Assembly: GCF_022482905.1 (NCBI RefSeq)
Contig: NZ_JAKVOI010000001.1
Coordinates: forward strand, 124,001 to 188,000
Direction of reading: 5' to 3'
Origin: Clostridium sp.
GTDB lineage: Bacteria > Bacillota > Clostridia > Clostridiales > Clostridiaceae
DNA length: 64,000 bases
Part shown: positions 17,329 through 26,244 of the stretch, in pieces
How positions within the stretch are numbered: the first letter of the stretch is position 1
Layout: each line of letters opens with the position of its first letter
Notes under the pieces: generated by a model
What the model saw: the letters and a program-made list of their open reading frames with translations, nothing else
Told to the model about the DNA's origin: nothing
Databases searched by the model: none
Program-made: the position numbers and the translations under genes

Positions 17329-17378
17329 AAAAGGAATGGCTGTCACACTAATTTTTTAGTGTGACAGCCATTCCTTTT
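17329..17378 (+). terminator. Strong bidirectional-type terminator after the chemoreceptor
   Basis: Perfect 22-bp stem (arms 17329-17350 and 17357-17378) with a 6-base loop and A-rich and T-rich flanks. It insulates the anf operon from upstream transcription. Confidence 0.92.
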
Positions 17379-17502
17379 ATACAAAACATAACTAAATGGA
17401 ATGTATAGATCTTTATGTAATCGTTAAATTTATAATATATTATTAAATTACTAAAAATAGATAGTTATTTTAACAATTTAACAAAAAAATATAAAAATAA
17501 TA

Positions 17503-17531
17503 TTGACAGTTAATAAAATCTCACATATAAT
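17503..17531 (+). promoter_or_regulatory. Consensus sigma-A promoter of the anf operon
   Basis: TTGACA (17503-17508), exactly 17 bp, TATAAT (17526-17531): a perfect match to the vegetative consensus. Transcription would begin near 17538, leaving a leader of about 105 bases before anfH. A strong core promoter for a costly system implies repression or activation by a bound factor. Candidate sites upstream of the -35 are GTTATTTTAAC (17464-17474) and two TTTAACA copies (within 17470-17486). Confidence 0.8.
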
Positions 17532-17559
17532 CATATAAAACAATACAAAAACATATTAA

Positions 17560-18471
<912 letters not shown>

Positions 18472-18485
18472 GTAAATATTATTAA

Positions 18486-20099
<1,614 letters not shown>

Positions 20100-20118
20100 T
20101 AAGTGGAGGTGACTGTTT

Positions 20119-20469
20119 GTGGAACAGGATATGAAAGACAAGGTAGAGCAGCTTACAAATTATATAATGAAAAATTGTCTCTGGCAATTCAATTCACGTG
20201 CATGGGACAGAGAAAATCAGAATGAAGGAATACTTACAAGAACCATGCAGATATTATGTGATGAACCAGTTGAAAAAGAGACACCGGCCGGGAGGTATTA
20301 CTGGGCTGAAGCTGTATATCTGGCAGGAGTTTATAAAAGCAGATATACGTGGATAAATGATATGAGCAAGGAAGAAATCAAGATACTAATGAAGGAACTC
20401 AAGGACAATATAGATTATTTGACTATTACAGGATCATTGAACGAAGAACTCAAGGATCCATTATATTAG
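20119..20469 (+). CDS. anfG: Fe-only nitrogenase delta chain
   Basis: Small subunit of 116 residues found only in alternative (V and Fe) nitrogenases, bound to the alpha subunit. It carries the family's WQFNSRAWDRENQN core followed by a PAGRYYWAEA motif. The start is a GTG at 20119 with GGAGG nine bases upstream; an ATG at 20131 is a less well placed alternative. It lies between anfD and anfK with gaps of under 20 bases, which fixes this operon as an alternative and not a Mo system. Confidence 0.96.
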   Translation: MEQDMKDKVEQLTNYIMKNCLWQFNSRAWDRENQNEGILTRTMQILCDEPVEKETPAGRYYWAEAVYLAGVYKSRYTWINDMSKEEIKILMKELKDNIDYLTITGSLNEELKDPLY

Positions 20470-21870
<1,401 letters not shown>

Positions 21871-21891
21871 ATATTATAAATATAATTTTAT

Positions 21892-21930
21892 ATTTTGCCA
21901 GGATCGGTAGGTTATCGATTCTGGCAAAAT
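21892..21930 (+). terminator. Stable hairpin between anfK and the downstream genes
   Basis: 15-bp stem with one G-T pair (arms 21892-21906 and 21916-21930) and a 9-base loop, but no T run. It is more likely a processing or mRNA-stability element, or a partial attenuator, that sets a step-down between anfHDGK and the downstream genes. Confidence 0.55.
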
Positions 21931-21951
21931 CATTAAAGGAGGGTTATTGAC

Positions 21952-22398
21952 ATGATAGGTAGCACAATACGTATAGAAATAGACCTGGAGTCGTTTGAAA
22001 AACATTATAAAGACGCAAAAGGATTTCACCGCAGAGCGGAACAGTTTCTAAATGAGGGCCAGAGCTCAAGTGTAATATTCAATGTAGCTTCTATTGCTCT
22101 TGAACGATATTTGATTGCGATATGTTATCTATATGGAGCACCCCCATGGAACAATACTTATGCTTCTCTTATGGATATTGTAGAAATAATTGTTGACTTT
22201 CCACAAGATTTAAATGATGAAATAAGATCTATAGGCAAGTTGTCTCAGCCATATCTTTGCTCTATGGAGCCATATCATGGAAAGTTTCCTGAAGCAGCTG
22301 ATGCAGATAGAATTCTTTCAATATGTGATAAAGTGAGCAGAACATTTGATCAATCAAGGATTTCAGCAATTAGATCAACAAAAAAGAAGGGAAAATGA
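21952..22398 (+). CDS. Small helical HEPN-like protein of the anf operon
   Basis: 148 residues, mostly helical by composition. The pattern (A-E-Q-F-L near 27, ALERYLIAICYLYG near 53-66, then a DIVE helix) resembles HEPN domains, but I see no Rx4-6H RNase motif, so nuclease activity is not supported. It has a strong AAGGAGGG site and follows anfK by 81 bases across a hairpin; the next gene starts two bases after its stop. It does not resemble AnfO or AnfR as I know them. The context suggests a role in alternative nitrogenase maturation, protection or control; the function is unknown. Confidence 0.6.
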   Translation: MIGSTIRIEIDLESFEKHYKDAKGFHRRAEQFLNEGQSSSVIFNVASIALERYLIAICYLYGAPPWNNTYASLMDIVEIIVDFPQDLNDEIRSIGKLSQPYLCSMEPYHGKFPEAADADRILSICDKVSRTFDQSRISAIRSTKKKGK

Positions 22399-22399
22399 T

Positions 22400-23128
22400 A
22401 TGAAAATTCACTATTTACAGCATGTGCCTTTTGAGGGCCCAGCAAATATTGTAAACTGGGCATATAAAAGAGGACATAAACTTACTGGTACCCATTTCTA
22501 CAATTATGAAACTGTCCCTGATATGAGTCAATTTGATTGTCTTATTATCATGGGTGGACCTATGAATATTTATGAAGAAAAAAAATATCCGTGGCTGAAA
22601 TATGAGAAAAAATTTATTAAAGAGGCTATTGATAATCATAAGACTGTATTGGGTATATGTCTTGGTGCACAACTTATTACTGATGTTCTCGGTGGTAAAG
22701 TAACTAAAAATCCGGAAGGAGAAATTGGATGGCTGCCTGTCAATTTCAACATAAAAGGAATCAATTCATCTCTTTTTAAGAGTTTTCCTGAAATGTTGTA
22801 TGTTTTCCAGTGGCATAATGATACGTTCAGTGCACTGGGAAATGGTGCCAGATGCATTGCATATAGTAAAGCCTGTAAAAATCAAGCTTTTATATATAGA
22901 GACAGAGTAATAGGTTTTCAGTTCCATATGGAAAGTACAAAAGACAGTATTTTTTCACTTATGGAGAATTGCAAGGATGAGATGAAAGAAGGCTCCTATG
23001 TACAGACTCCTCAAGAGATAGAAGCAAAAATGGACAATTTGAAGGCAGCGAATGAAATTATGAATGATTTTTTAGATAAGCTTGAATCCATTATTTTGAA
23101 AGGAGACAATTATATATGGAAAGAATAA
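22400..23128 (+). CDS. Class I glutamine amidotransferase-like protein
   Basis: Cytoplasmic protein of 242 residues with the GATase1 fold: GGPMNIYEE oxyanion region, nucleophile Cys87 in GICLGAQ and the His176-x-Glu178 pair in FQFHMES. The complete triad suggests that it hydrolyses glutamine, or acts on a gamma-glutamyl compound as in the stand-alone GMP-synthase-like members. The start is the ATG at 22400, two bases after the upstream stop and after AAGAAGGG; its end overlaps the next gene by 13 bases. Its place in the anf operon is notable because nitrogenase output enters metabolism through glutamine. The substrate is unknown. Confidence 0.85.
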   Translation: MKIHYLQHVPFEGPANIVNWAYKRGHKLTGTHFYNYETVPDMSQFDCLIIMGGPMNIYEEKKYPWLKYEKKFIKEAIDNHKTVLGICLGAQLITDVLGGKVTKNPEGEIGWLPVNFNIKGINSSLFKSFPEMLYVFQWHNDTFSALGNGARCIAYSKACKNQAFIYRDRVIGFQFHMESTKDSIFSLMENCKDEMKEGSYVQTPQEIEAKMDNLKAANEIMNDFLDKLESIILKGDNYIWKE

Positions 23129-23628
23129 GATATATCCAGAGAGTCTGTCATGACGAGGAAAAAATCCACAGATTTTTGGATGAACAAAAGGTTGGAATAC
23201 TTGGTATGTGTGACAAAAACAGTCCCTATGCCATACCCGTAAATTATATATATTGGAATAAAAAAATTTATATACATGGTATGGGAAGCGGTAAAAAAAA
23301 TAGTATACTTGAAGCAAATTCCAAAGTCTCCTTTACAATCTTTGAGGAATTTGGAACAGTGAAGGATCCTATACCCTGTAAATGTGATACTTCATATTTT
23401 AGTGTTGTTATTTTTGGAAAAGCTATTCTTGTAGAAGACCTTGATGAAAAGACAAAAGCTCTTACAAAATTTCTGGATAAATTTGTTCCGGGATTTTTTA
23501 ATAGTCCCCTTTCTACAAAATTTGTGAATAAATATCGTTCGTCACTGGACAATATGGCCGTTACTGTATATTGCATTTATCCTGATGATCTAACTGCTAA
23601 AGAAAACCCGGCAAACAACATTTATTAA
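23116..23628 (+). CDS. PPOX/Nim-like FMN-binding split-barrel protein
   Basis: 170-residue flavoprotein of the pyridoxamine 5'-phosphate oxidase-like family. It has the GILGMCD strand, then PYAIPVNYIYWNKKIYIHG and GKKNSIL, the order seen in NimA-type proteins. Such proteins bind FMN or haem and reduce small molecules. It overlaps the amidotransferase gene by 13 bases (ATG after AAAGGAG), so the two are translationally coupled. A redox or oxygen-protection task beside nitrogenase would be reasonable but is inference. Confidence 0.82.
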   Translation: MERIRYIQRVCHDEEKIHRFLDEQKVGILGMCDKNSPYAIPVNYIYWNKKIYIHGMGSGKKNSILEANSKVSFTIFEEFGTVKDPIPCKCDTSYFSVVIFGKAILVEDLDEKTKALTKFLDKFVPGFFNSPLSTKFVNKYRSSLDNMAVTVYCIYPDDLTAKENPANNIY

Positions 23629-23675
23629 TAGTTATGTTATTCATATACTGTTATTTTAAAGCATTATATTATATA

Positions 23676-23699
23676 ATAATGTTATTAGTTTAACATAAT
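23676..23699. promoter_or_regulatory. Palindromic candidate operator upstream of the HTH-PBP regulator
   Basis: ATAATGTTA (23676-23684) and TAACATAAT (23691-23699) form an inverted repeat with a perfect ATGTTA/TAACAT core and one mismatch, separated by 6 bp. A GTTATTTTAA motif at 23650-23659 and the TTTAACA within this palindrome both recur near the anfH promoter. Confidence 0.4.
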
Positions 23700-23727
23700 A
23701 AAAATAATTTACAGAAAGGAATTTAAT

Positions 23728-24678
23728 ATGTATATAGATACAGCTCTCACTCCCCAGGAAGTAGCTGATATACTGAAAATTTCCAAAAGTACGGTATATG
23801 AATTAATAAAGCGAAAAGAAATAAATTCCTATAGAGTGGGCAAAAAAGTACGTGTGGATTTGAAAGATGTTGAGGCATATAAGAATAAAACTAAAAATAC
23901 CGTCACTGATGCAGCAGTACCTGAACCTGTATCATATAATACGGAACCTCGAAATAAGGTGCCTTTTGAAAAGTATAGTTTTGTTATATGTGGGCAGGAC
24001 CCTATTTTGGACATACTTTGCAGATATCTGTCCTGTTATAAAGATGGAATACGTGTACTGAGATCCTATGAAGGAAGCTATAATGGGATATATGCACTTT
24101 ATTGTGATAAAGTACAGGTAGCAACAGCCCATATGTGGGATGAGAGGACAGGAGAATATAATGTGCCCTATATAGAAAAAATGCTTCCTGGTACTCCTGC
24201 AATAGTAATAAGACTTGCTGCAAGAATGGAAGGATTTTATGTAGCCACGGGTAATCCAAAAAATATAAAAGATTGGGAAGATCTTAAAAGATCAGACATT
24301 ACATTGGTAAATAGGGAAAAGGGAAGTGGAACAAGAATACTTCTTGATGAGCATCTTCGCAGTATGGGAATCGATGGAAGCAAAATAGAGGGCTATTATA
24401 GAGAATGTGTTTCACATCTTGCGGTAGCAAGTGTAGTTGCCAGAGGTGGTGCGGATTTTGGAATTGGAAATGAAAAAGCATGTTCTCAGGTTAAAGGCAT
24501 AGAGTTTATACCGATACAAGAAGAAAAATATGATATGATCGTGAAAAAAAGGGATTTAAATAAACCATCCATCAAAGCCATCATGAACATATTGGAATCT
24601 GAGCAATTTCAAATGGAAATCATGGGTATAGGCGGATATGATATTAGCGAGATGGGAAAAATTATAGCCGAAACATAA
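23728..24678 (+). CDS. One-component regulator: excisionase-type HTH plus PBP-like sensor
   Basis: 316 residues in two parts. Residues 1-58 form an excisionase/MerR-type helix-turn-helix (LTPQEVADILKISKSTVYEL, then YRVGKKVRV). Residues about 74-316 form a periplasmic-binding-protein-like domain (NREKGSGTRILLDEHL, then GGADFGIG), without a signal peptide, so it senses inside the cell. Proteins of this design are often linked to molybdate or tungstate genes. Directly downstream of anfHDGK, the simplest reading is that it represses the Fe-only enzyme when molybdate is available. It has its own AAAGGAA site and upstream palindrome. The ligand is inferred. Confidence 0.82.
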   Translation: MYIDTALTPQEVADILKISKSTVYELIKRKEINSYRVGKKVRVDLKDVEAYKNKTKNTVTDAAVPEPVSYNTEPRNKVPFEKYSFVICGQDPILDILCRYLSCYKDGIRVLRSYEGSYNGIYALYCDKVQVATAHMWDERTGEYNVPYIEKMLPGTPAIVIRLAARMEGFYVATGNPKNIKDWEDLKRSDITLVNREKGSGTRILLDEHLRSMGIDGSKIEGYYRECVSHLAVASVVARGGADFGIGNEKACSQVKGIEFIPIQEEKYDMIVKKRDLNKPSIKAIMNILESEQFQMEIMGIGGYDISEMGKIIAET

Positions 24679-24802
24679 TTAAAATAAAAGGGAATTAAGT
24701 ATATATTTGTGTAAAAGTCAAATCTATGCTCATTCCCACCGTGATTAGACCATATTATCCAGTTTCATGTAAACGTATAAAAATATAATTATCTAAAATA
24801 AT

Positions 24803-24832
24803 ATCCCTTAAAACTTAACAGCTTTAAGGGAT
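24803..24832 (-). terminator. Terminator of the tRNA operon
   Basis: 10-bp inverted repeat ATCCCTTAAA (24803-24812) and TTTAAGGGAT (24823-24832), immediately past the 3' end of tRNA-Cys on the minus strand and followed there by a T-rich stretch. The rest of 24679-24836 shows no gene. Confidence 0.7.
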
Positions 24833-24836
24833 TCTT

Positions 24837-24910
<74 letters not shown>

Positions 24911-24919
24911 ATATTGAAT

Positions 24920-24994
24920 TGGAGCGGAAGACGAGATTCGAACTCGCGACGTTCACCTTGGCAAGGTGACGCTCTACCACTGAGCCACTCCCGC
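24920..24994 (-). tRNA. tRNA-Gly (GCC)
   Basis: 75 bases with encoded CCA. The acceptor GCGGGAG pairs with CTTCCGC, the anticodon GCC is in the loop CTTGCCAAG and the T-loop GTTCGAATC is intact. Confidence 0.95.
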
Positions 24995-25011
24995 ATATTA
25001 AACTACAACAA

Positions 25012-25087
<76 letters not shown>

Positions 25088-25096
25088 AACTTGACT

Positions 25097-25175
25097 TGAC
25101 GACTCAGAAGGGACTACGATCCTCAACTTTCAGCGTGACAGGTTGATACACTCCAACTAACTGAGCCACCGAACA
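25097..25175 (-). pseudogene. Decayed tRNA-Asp (GTC)
   Basis: Between tRNA-Phe and tRNA-Val lies a tRNA-like stretch with an intact D-arm core (GGCTCAGTTAGTTGGAG) and an Asp anticodon loop CTGTCAC. The 5' acceptor TGTTCGG needs CCGAACA on the 3' side, but the sequence there is TGAGTCG. The anticodon stem has one A-C mismatch, the T-arm is distorted (GGATCGTAGTCC in place of GGTTCGAGTCC) and the end is TCA, not CCA. It sits where clostridial clusters usually have tRNA-Asp, so it is best read as a degenerate copy. Confidence 0.75.
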
Positions 25176-25180
25176 CAACC

Positions 25181-25256
25181 TGGTGGGCACAACAGGGCTC
25201 GAACCTGTGACCCTCTGCTTGTAAGGCAGATGCTCTCCCAGCTGAGCTATGCGCCC
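25181..25256 (-). tRNA. tRNA-Val (TAC)
   Basis: 76 bases with encoded CCA. The acceptor GGGCGCA/TGTGCCC pairs, the anticodon is TAC in CTTACAA and the T-loop GTTCGAGCC is intact. It is the first gene of the cluster, directly behind a consensus promoter. Confidence 0.95.
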
Positions 25257-25292
25257 TGATATATCACGCACTATGCCGTCGCAACAATTAAT

Positions 25293-25321
25293 ATTATATA
25301 TGCTGGATTTTATATTGTCAA
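25293..25321 (-). promoter_or_regulatory. Consensus sigma-A promoter of the tRNA cluster
   Basis: On the minus strand: TTGACA (25321-25316), 17 bp, TATAAT (25298-25293), a perfect match, 37 bases before tRNA-Val. Strong promoters of this kind are normal for stable RNA operons. Confidence 0.88.
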
Positions 25322-25356
25322 TACTTTATTTTTAAACTTTATCGTAATTTCTATAA

Positions 25357-26244
25357 TTATCTATTAGTTGCAGATTTTAATATTTGGCCAATTTGTTCAT
25401 GAGTAAATTTATAACTTTTGTTGCAGAAGTTACAGTTAAGTTCTTCTGTTTTACCGTCATCGTATATTTCTTTAAGATCCTTGGCCCCTATGCTTATTAG
25501 AGCTCTTTCGACCTTTTCCCTGGAGCAGTTGCATTTGTACACTGGATGGATTTCGTCAAGAATTTTTAAATCAGCTCCTTTAAAAATAGTTTTTACAATA
25601 CCACCGGCATCCATACCGCTTACGATCATATCGGTTACAGAGGATATGTTTTTTATTCTGTCCATTACAAAATTTACTGTATTTTCTTCACAATCCGGCA
25701 TCATCTGTATTATAAAGCCCCCGGCAGCTTTTATAGTCAGATCCCTGTCTACAAGCACACCGACTGCCACAGCTGAGGGAGTTTGTTCGGATACAGTGAA
25801 ATAATAGGCGAGATCATCACCGATTTCTCCTGTAACTATGGGAACCTGACCTACATAAGGTTCTTTTAATCCCATATCCTTTATTACGACAAGATTTCCA
25901 TTTGTACCTATTGCACCGCCTACATCCAATTTATCCTTGTTGTTAGGGGGCAGTTCTACTTGAGGATTTCCCATATAACCTTTAACACTTCCATCAGGAT
26001 ATGCCACTACAATTACGCCCCTGGCAGCTCCACCCCCGGATATTTTAATAGTCAGACTATCATTTTCTGATTTCAGCATGGTTCCCATGAGACTGCCGGC
26101 CGTAAGCATTCTTCCAAGAGCTGCAGCTGCCGTAGCAGAACATTTGTGTATTTTGACAGCTTCATTTACCAGCTGTGTAGTTGTAGTTGAAATTATTCTT
26201 ACATTATTATCTAGAGCCATAGCTCGTACTATGTTATCGTCCAT
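25357..26244 (-). CDS. hslO: Redox-regulated chaperone Hsp33
   Basis: Cytoplasmic holdase activated by oxidation, 295 residues. The N-terminal domain has [11 protein letters not shown] and the GGGAARG turn; the C-terminal redox switch shows the zinc-binding cysteines as YKCNCS and LNCNFC. Oxidative disulfide formation releases zinc and activates client binding. The ATG at 26244 follows AAAGGAG and overlaps the end of the methyltransferase gene by 11 bases, so the minus-strand order is SASP, methyltransferase, hslO. Confidence 0.95.

Follow-up and report, generated by a model that had tools for sequence, protein, structure and literature searches.

How is an Fe-only nitrogenase kept in check in a Gram-positive bacterium? 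The question is raised by a 64,000-nucleotide stretch of a Clostridium sp. genome (assembly GCF_022482905.1, contig NZ_JAKVOI010000001.1, positions 124,001 to 188,000), called the window below, in which the anfHDGK cluster ends with a gene for a protein that joins an excisionase-type helix-turn-helix (HTH) to a periplasmic-binding-protein-like (PBP-like) domain. For the control of Mo-free nitrogenases in Gram-positive diazotrophs without ModE and AnfA, no description was found in the open-licence literature searched; here and below, published work is considered as far as the accessible parts of the papers go. Sequence comparisons make it probable that the window protein is a repressor of the TaoR type which senses an oxyanion in the cytoplasm and is dedicated to the Fe-only nitrogenase. 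This reading is based on the combination of the HTH with the PBP domain, the position as last gene of the anf cluster, the retained pocket residues, the membership in a clade associated with anf and vnf, and the repeats lying across the −10 element and the transcript start of anfH.

The regulator, its relatives and their neighbours

The HTH is recognised both as HTH_17 (PF12728, residues 7–54, E 2e-15) and as the NCBIfam model "excise" (TIGR01764, residues 7–53, E 2.2e-15), and a borderline SBP_bac_11 match falls within the PBP part. No export signal is visible by eye, the N-terminus being the HTH itself. In the AlphaFold2 model (alignment of 86 sequences, mean predicted local distance difference test score 89) both domains are confident, and low confidence is confined to residues 1–3 and the linker 57–83. 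Since 20 aligned relatives are 48–77% identical to the window protein, an open reading frame (ORF) arising by chance is not an issue. The domain composition without signal peptide, as given in a preliminary description of this DNA, is thus borne out by Pfam, NCBIfam and AlphaFold2, with the signal judged by eye.

A protein search of 59 whole genomes of relatives gave matches in 37. The strong matches are HTH-PBP proteins, while the weaker ones (35–43% identity, mostly in open frames of ca 600–660 residues) were taken as MoeA-PBP fusions. A scan of named genome contigs, from which the best 80 of 296 encoding stretches were kept, gave 79 loci. From both sources 103 regulator genes were pooled and 10 duplicates dropped, leaving 93; these include a mod-linked deltaproteobacterial member (L153, 53% identity). 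The regulator gene of genome G006 (L055), broken by a stop codon, was left out of the tree and the counts. This nif-linked gene (G006:C12:316398-317341) has intact copies in sister species.

Neighbouring genes were labelled by local BLAST against reference genes taken from the collected loci, with a reach of 9 kb. By this measure mod, nif, vnf or anf genes accompany 80 of the 93 non-duplicate relatives (mod 43, vnf 10, nif 9, anf 7, mod+nif 4, mod+mop+nif 3, mod+mop 2, anf+mod 1, mod+vnf 1), and some of the 13 unlinked ones sit on short contigs. The earlier statement that the domain pair is frequent at Mo/W loci agrees with this comparison of neighbourhoods. The host genome (3,567,184 bp in a single contig) has a second copy at ca 3.05 Mb, which is 59% identical to the window protein and faces nifH of the Mo-nitrogenase operon.

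In the tree of the 93 sequences, the window protein belongs to a clade of 13 rows (support of 97 in the Shimodaira–Hasegawa-like approximate likelihood-ratio test), along with regulators from Desulfosporosinus, Ruminiclostridium, a Eubacterium metagenome-assembled genome (MAG) and Clostridium that adjoin anf or vnf. Mostly anf- or vnf-linked copies also make up a second clade, of 10 rows (support 99). Such linkage is seen for 18 of the 23 rows inside the two clades and for 1 of the 70 outside, the rows not being independent of each other. Both clades were retained, with supports of 97/97 and 100/98, in a 56-row tree with newly fetched sequences, where two vnf-linked copies join the window protein in a starred set of four. 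The recognition helix starts with SKSTVY in the window protein and mostly in its clade; AKNTVY is found mostly in mod- and nif-linked copies.

We have also taken a census of all AnfG/VnfG loci above cut-off in 206 genomes of the family (24 loci), together with 3 from the class sample, each read over ca 20 kb or as far as the contig allowed; G490, below the AnfG cut-off, was left out. Of the 12 anf clusters, 5 have an HTH-PBP regulator within reach, as do 13 of the 15 vnf clusters, and the two vnf clusters without one (L073, L204) are at contig ends. Six vnf clusters (L200, L203, L208, L209, L210, L211) have two such regulators each, mostly of different clades; these clusters might read two metals.

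Tandem repeats at the anfH promoter

The general operator of the family was found by expectation maximisation on the 93 upstream regions. The motif is made up of direct repeats such as ATTATATCAC GTTTCGTCAC GTTT, arranged in tandem every 10 bp, and in the background none of 231,716 positions reaches 13 bits. A three-unit match of 22.5 bits stands directly before modA of the host's own modABC, ca 2 Mb from the window and outside the training set, with no regulator gene among the neighbours read there. The gap between the host's nifH and the second regulator scores 23.2 bits, this gap being part of the training set. Among 23 modA promoters not used in training, some of whose loci are close relatives of one another, the motif is the best site of the whole locus in 15, scores 17–19.5 bits in 4 and is missing in 4.

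The anfH promoter of the window is of the sigma-A type and, of the region's 29 promoter-like sites, is the sole one to match the consensus at all 12 bases. Eight promoters aligned at the −10 element share the form TTGAC(A/T)-N17-TATAAT-NNTAYRAAACARTACAAAAC or one close to it, and on the opposite strand the element is the same 10-bp tandem repeat as the family motif. Four of the eight precede anfH or vnfH, namely those of the window, L073 (vnf of C. luticellarii), L081 (anf of a Eubacterium MAG, 428 bp from the gene) and L084 (anf of R. cellobioparum, 511 bp). The other four belong to the group of G011/G004/G009. In L054 and L056 the shared promoter precedes an operon passing through transport genes to the regulator, and in L053 and L056 it heads an operon diverging from nifB-vnf, with an XRE-type gene and nifI1/nifI2-like genes. 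The L053 and L056 promoters were considered as nifB-vnf promoters, which is ruled out by their pointing the opposite way. Two unknown genes stand between the XRE-type gene and the nifI1/nifI2-like ones in the operon into which the operator-bearing promoter diverging from nifB-vnf leads (L215:1059-3832, L216:1104-3877).

This derived operator was recognised in promoters aligned by eye, after the mod motif had been established. When motifs were sought de novo in the window-clade promoters alone, mainly words resembling ribosome sites and −35 elements came up, and searching four promoters for shared words did no better than shuffles.

The pattern was then searched for more widely. At ≤2 mismatches, ca 2.0 Mb of loci contain 11 distinct matches, which are the eight aligned promoters, L079, L083 (515 bp before vnfH; L214 is the same locus and was counted once) and the modA promoter of L088. 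At ≤5 mismatches the true pattern has 21 distinct matches in these loci, compared to 5 hits in all for the reversed control. The 206 family genomes contain six exact matches, in four genomes and all within anf/vnf regions, and in 391 class genomes the single match to a slightly relaxed form is the anfH promoter of the window; the control gives 0 in both cases. Within the host genome there are 20 hits at ≤3 mismatches against 8 for the control, and the only exact one is at the anfH promoter. A vnf locus fetched later (L203) has the pattern at 1 mismatch. In thirteen loci an anf or vnf cluster is accompanied by a regulator of the window clade, adjoining or elsewhere in the same genome, and 7 of these loci carry the pattern at ≤2 mismatches (window, L073, L079, L081, L083, L084, L203).

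The L079 match precedes a small gene ahead of anfH. Such a gene is found near the regulator in four Desulfosporosinus loci (L079:9166-9672, L080:9273-9713, L082:9273-9746, L078:8855-9343), and in L079, L080 and L082 it lies between the regulator and anfH.

A number of results speak against a dedicated repressor, however. The pattern was derived from aligned promoters that include the window's own, and the general motif upstream of anfH reaches at most 7.7 bits as a 24-mer and 9.2 bits with three units. Because the general motif is weak here, the window sites rest mainly on the conservation of the promoter-operator pattern; the second element, at 17378 (9.2 bits for three units, third-best in the window), is suggestive only. 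Two of the 13 window-clade loci have the pattern at 4 mismatches (L082, L200) and four do not have it at ≤5 mismatches (L080, L107, L127, L130), and in the second clade the pattern is seen only in the L053/L054/L056 group, and there not before the vnf structural genes. In the census, 7 of the 12 anf clusters are without a regulator nearby (L074, L075, L076, L197, L198, L199, L213), and the operator is present at ≤5 mismatches only in that of the window. With regulator or operator missing at most sampled anf clusters, another control must exist in many of them.

The clusters without a neighbouring regulator also bear on the role of the second copy. The nif-linked paralogue could repress anf as well as mod, with a different or an auxiliary task left to the window protein, for example in a hetero-oligomer or on its own neighbours. 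The paralogue has the common recognition helix, the strongest sites seen in the genome are at nifH and modA, and anf clusters without an adjacent regulator occur in genomes with regulators elsewhere (L074–L076). However, the anf promoter bears the derived operator and not the mod version, and in other genera the derived form stands at anf or vnf beside window-clade members. None of the seven regulator-less anf clusters has the derived operator at ≤5 mismatches, though neither do the four with another regulator nearby (L196, L201, L202, L212). We consider this scenario rather improbable. Another option is that a duplicated mod regulator is parked at anf without controlling it, for which the 7 of 12 anf clusters without such a neighbour could be invoked. 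That two separate clades track the alternative nitrogenases, and that one or two copies stand at the sampled vnf clusters in all but two cases, makes an incidental neighbourhood very improbable indeed.

The position of the repeats bears on the sign of the regulation. TaoR is reported (Rajeev et al. 2019, Environ Microbiol 21:784-799) to activate one target and repress another, and the window protein might likewise be an activator of anf in its apo-form when molybdate is absent, or a dual regulator. However, a promoter with all 12 consensus bases needs no help, and the operator covers the −10 and the stretch after it, where repressors typically bind. Activation or dual control is quite improbable, and we continue with the dedicated repressor.

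The preliminary description had pointed to two stretches of DNA. The candidate operators lie within or beside the first (17380-17540), whereas the second (23640-23720), which lies between the preceding gene and the regulator, gives no more than 3.9 bits (24-mer) for the general motif, which is not significant, so that no operator of the regulator's own is seen there. Its proposal that an oxyanion-bound protein represses anf is partly supported in silico, with the sampled anf clusters that have no such neighbour speaking against it.

Ligand, mechanism and surrounding genes

The residues G116, S117, H135, W137, R196, E197, S200-G-T202, R203, E226, S229, H230, D243, E249 and K250 of the PBP_like domain, together with G89, Q90 and D91 just ahead of the Pfam match, are predicted to form an oxyanion pocket. 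The protein has the R-x5-T spacing of TupA, with residues resembling R118/T124 (by eye), and in the PDB its PBP part finds its best sequence matches among sulfate-binding proteins. A fold comparison with VIA-align, which does not tell the ligand, weighs against a molybdate sensor in that it puts phosphate-binding proteins (ranked first), TAXI-TRAP proteins and LysR effector domains level with ModA. TaoR, moreover, controls a tungsten enzyme (PMC11980592). The main ligand could be tungstate, or a different oxyanion (sulfate, phosphate, vanadate), with anf tied to a signal other than molybdate. This we regard as unlikely, given that relatives stand repeatedly beside modABC, that the host's own modA promoter carries the family operator, and that metal availability is the known cue for alternative nitrogenases (PMC9542535).

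For the dedicated repressor, the following mechanism can be envisaged. When molybdate (or tungstate) is plentiful, it would fill the cleft of the PBP domain, and copies of the loaded protein would line up on the 10-bp repeats, blocking RNA polymerase at an otherwise perfect sigma-A promoter. Once molybdate is exhausted, the protein would release the DNA and anfHDGK would be expressed. The regulator, being probably on the anf transcript, would also repress its own synthesis. The second copy facing nifH would act as the general Mo regulator of modABC and the Mo-nitrogenase region, via the parental form of the repeats.

A wider and more tentative scheme, which we consider possible but would not favour, is that in Clostridia and relatives duplicated copies of one oxyanion-sensing repressor choose the nitrogenase. 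Each copy would be tied to a single isozyme through a separate form of the tandem-repeat operator, with one copy serving nif/mod, another anf, and one or two vnf, and altered-pocket copies of some vnf clusters would have turned into vanadate sensors, such that one family reads both Mo/W and V. The altered copies in question are the vnf-linked regulators L053:8990-9940, L054:9030-9977 and L056:8941-9888, with D91E, S117G, H135N, R166H, E249Q and Y268C; transporter-like genes adjoining them, as read by eye, might carry vanadate. A different alteration (R196H, H230Y, K250I) is seen in a window-clade member of a Desulfosporosinus MAG (L085:4505-5461), whose 9,982-bp contig has no anf or vnf.

Turning to the cluster itself (Table 1), the genes upstream of the regulator and on the same strand pass the NCBIfam cut-offs for nifH, ANFD, anfG and anfK. 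The regulator, first described as lying immediately downstream of the anf cluster, is its distal gene, with three more genes and a 99-bp gap between anfK and the regulator. Since no promoter-like or terminator-like site is among the sites listed in this gap, the regulator is likely to be co-transcribed with anf. Between a chemoreceptor gene and anfH there is a very stable 20-bp hairpin (17330-17377), which is probably a terminator. Homologues of the 148-residue protein after anfK (47–54% identity) are found beside anf in L196, L197, L198 and L213. The amidotransferase-like and pyridoxamine-oxidase/Nim-like pair recurs at anf clusters across genera (L074–L076, L079, L081, L082, L084, L196–L199, L213), and these two are possible accessory genes of the Fe-only nitrogenase.

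Table 1. Positions, strands and basis of the features in the window.
Feature	Position	Strand	Basis and remarks
Second operator-like element, TATACATTCC ATTTAGTTAT GTTTTGTATA	17378..17407	-	general motif
anfH promoter, TTGACA (17503-17508), 17 bp, TATAAT (17526-17531)	17503..17531	+	12/12 consensus bases
Proposed main operator, tandem 10-bp units, overlapping −10 and transcript start	17526..17556	-	promoter alignment and pattern searches
anfH	17644..18471	+	NCBIfam; start codon picked by eye
anfD	18504..20099	+	NCBIfam
anfG	20119..20469	+	NCBIfam
anfK	20485..21870	+	NCBIfam
148-aa protein without Pfam or NCBIfam match	21952..22398	+	Pfam/NCBIfam tables
Class-I glutamine amidotransferase-like gene	about 22400..23128	+	Pfam; ATG start picked by eye
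Pyridoxamine-oxidase/Nim-like gene	23116..23628	+	Pfam/NCBIfam
Short inverted repeat ATGTTA-N6-TAACAT, 31 bp before regulator start	23679..23696	.	by eye; weak, could be chance
HTH-PBP regulator gene, TaoR-type architecture	23728..24678	+	316 aa; ORF list, Pfam/NCBIfam, AlphaFold2
HTH_17/excisionase-type DNA-binding domain, aa 7-54	23746..23889	+	Pfam
PBP_like domain (PF12727), aa 106-289	24043..24594	+	Pfam, E 1.3e-69

Comparison with known systems

This type of regulator has been described before, since TaoR of Desulfovibrio, with the same HTH and PBP-like pair, is a characterised regulator of a tungstoenzyme (PMC11980592). In Paenibacillus, a COG1910 gene is counted among the mod genes that go up during nitrogen fixation (PMC4774088). 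For an HTH-PBP regulator of anf or vnf, no description was found in the open-licence literature searched.

ModE has the role proposed here, that is, molybdate-dependent repression of mod and alternative-nitrogenase genes, but it consists of a ModE-type HTH with TOBE domains, whereas the sensor of the window protein is a PBP fold; neither the ModE-type HTH (TIGR00637) nor TOBE appears for it in the Pfam/NCBIfam tables at E up to 0.001. AnfA and VnfA also switch alternative nitrogenase genes by metal availability, but they do so as activators, the enhancer-binding proteins of Proteobacteria (PMC9542535), while the window has a consensus sigma-A promoter with repeats on its −10. Pfam lists no sigma-54 activator AAA+ domain (PF00158) for the window protein, and the 21 matches to this domain in the genome all lie outside the window. 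A sigma-54 promoter in the window was rejected, since the 31 matches at ≤2 mismatches compare with 31.2 expected by chance and none is without mismatches. That the protein takes the place of ModE plus AnfA, as had been suggested, is thus in line with the promoter type, with the absence of such an activator from the window and with the lack of ModE above the TIGR00637 cut-off in all 13 genomes of the genus; it is tempered by weaker ModE hits in 7 of these, the one read (L069) being a 323-aa protein with a ModE-like C-terminus by eye.

Two further groups share the PBP-like part. In the MoeA-PBP fusion MoeA1 (PMC11733289) the PBP-like domain is also cytoplasmic, but is joined to a molybdopterin enzyme and not to an HTH. 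TupA and ModA share the fold, but are exported transporter components and not regulators; the window protein has its N-terminal HTH and no transporter gene among its neighbours at 17560-25357.

The closest likeness is to TaoR. Both proteins have an N-terminal excisionase-type HTH_17 and a C-terminal PBP-like domain, and an association with molybdate/tungstate transport genes is common to both, as indicated by the title of the TaoR paper and by our own linkage counts, the window gene itself being at anf, which encodes a Mo-free enzyme. The targets differ: TaoR regulates a tungsten aldehyde oxidoreductase (PMC11980592), while the window-protein clade sits at Fe-only and V nitrogenase genes and has its own operator form on their promoters. 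A regulator type known from metal uptake looks, by these comparisons, to have been duplicated and dedicated to one nitrogenase. The result offers a named gene and a candidate operator at base level, suggests that one regulator family splits into isozyme-dedicated copies along with its DNA site, and may provide a Mo/W (perhaps V) sensor part for the engineering of nitrogen fixation. Compared with what is known, the regulator is of the TaoR type, placed in a new setting and with an operator form of its own.
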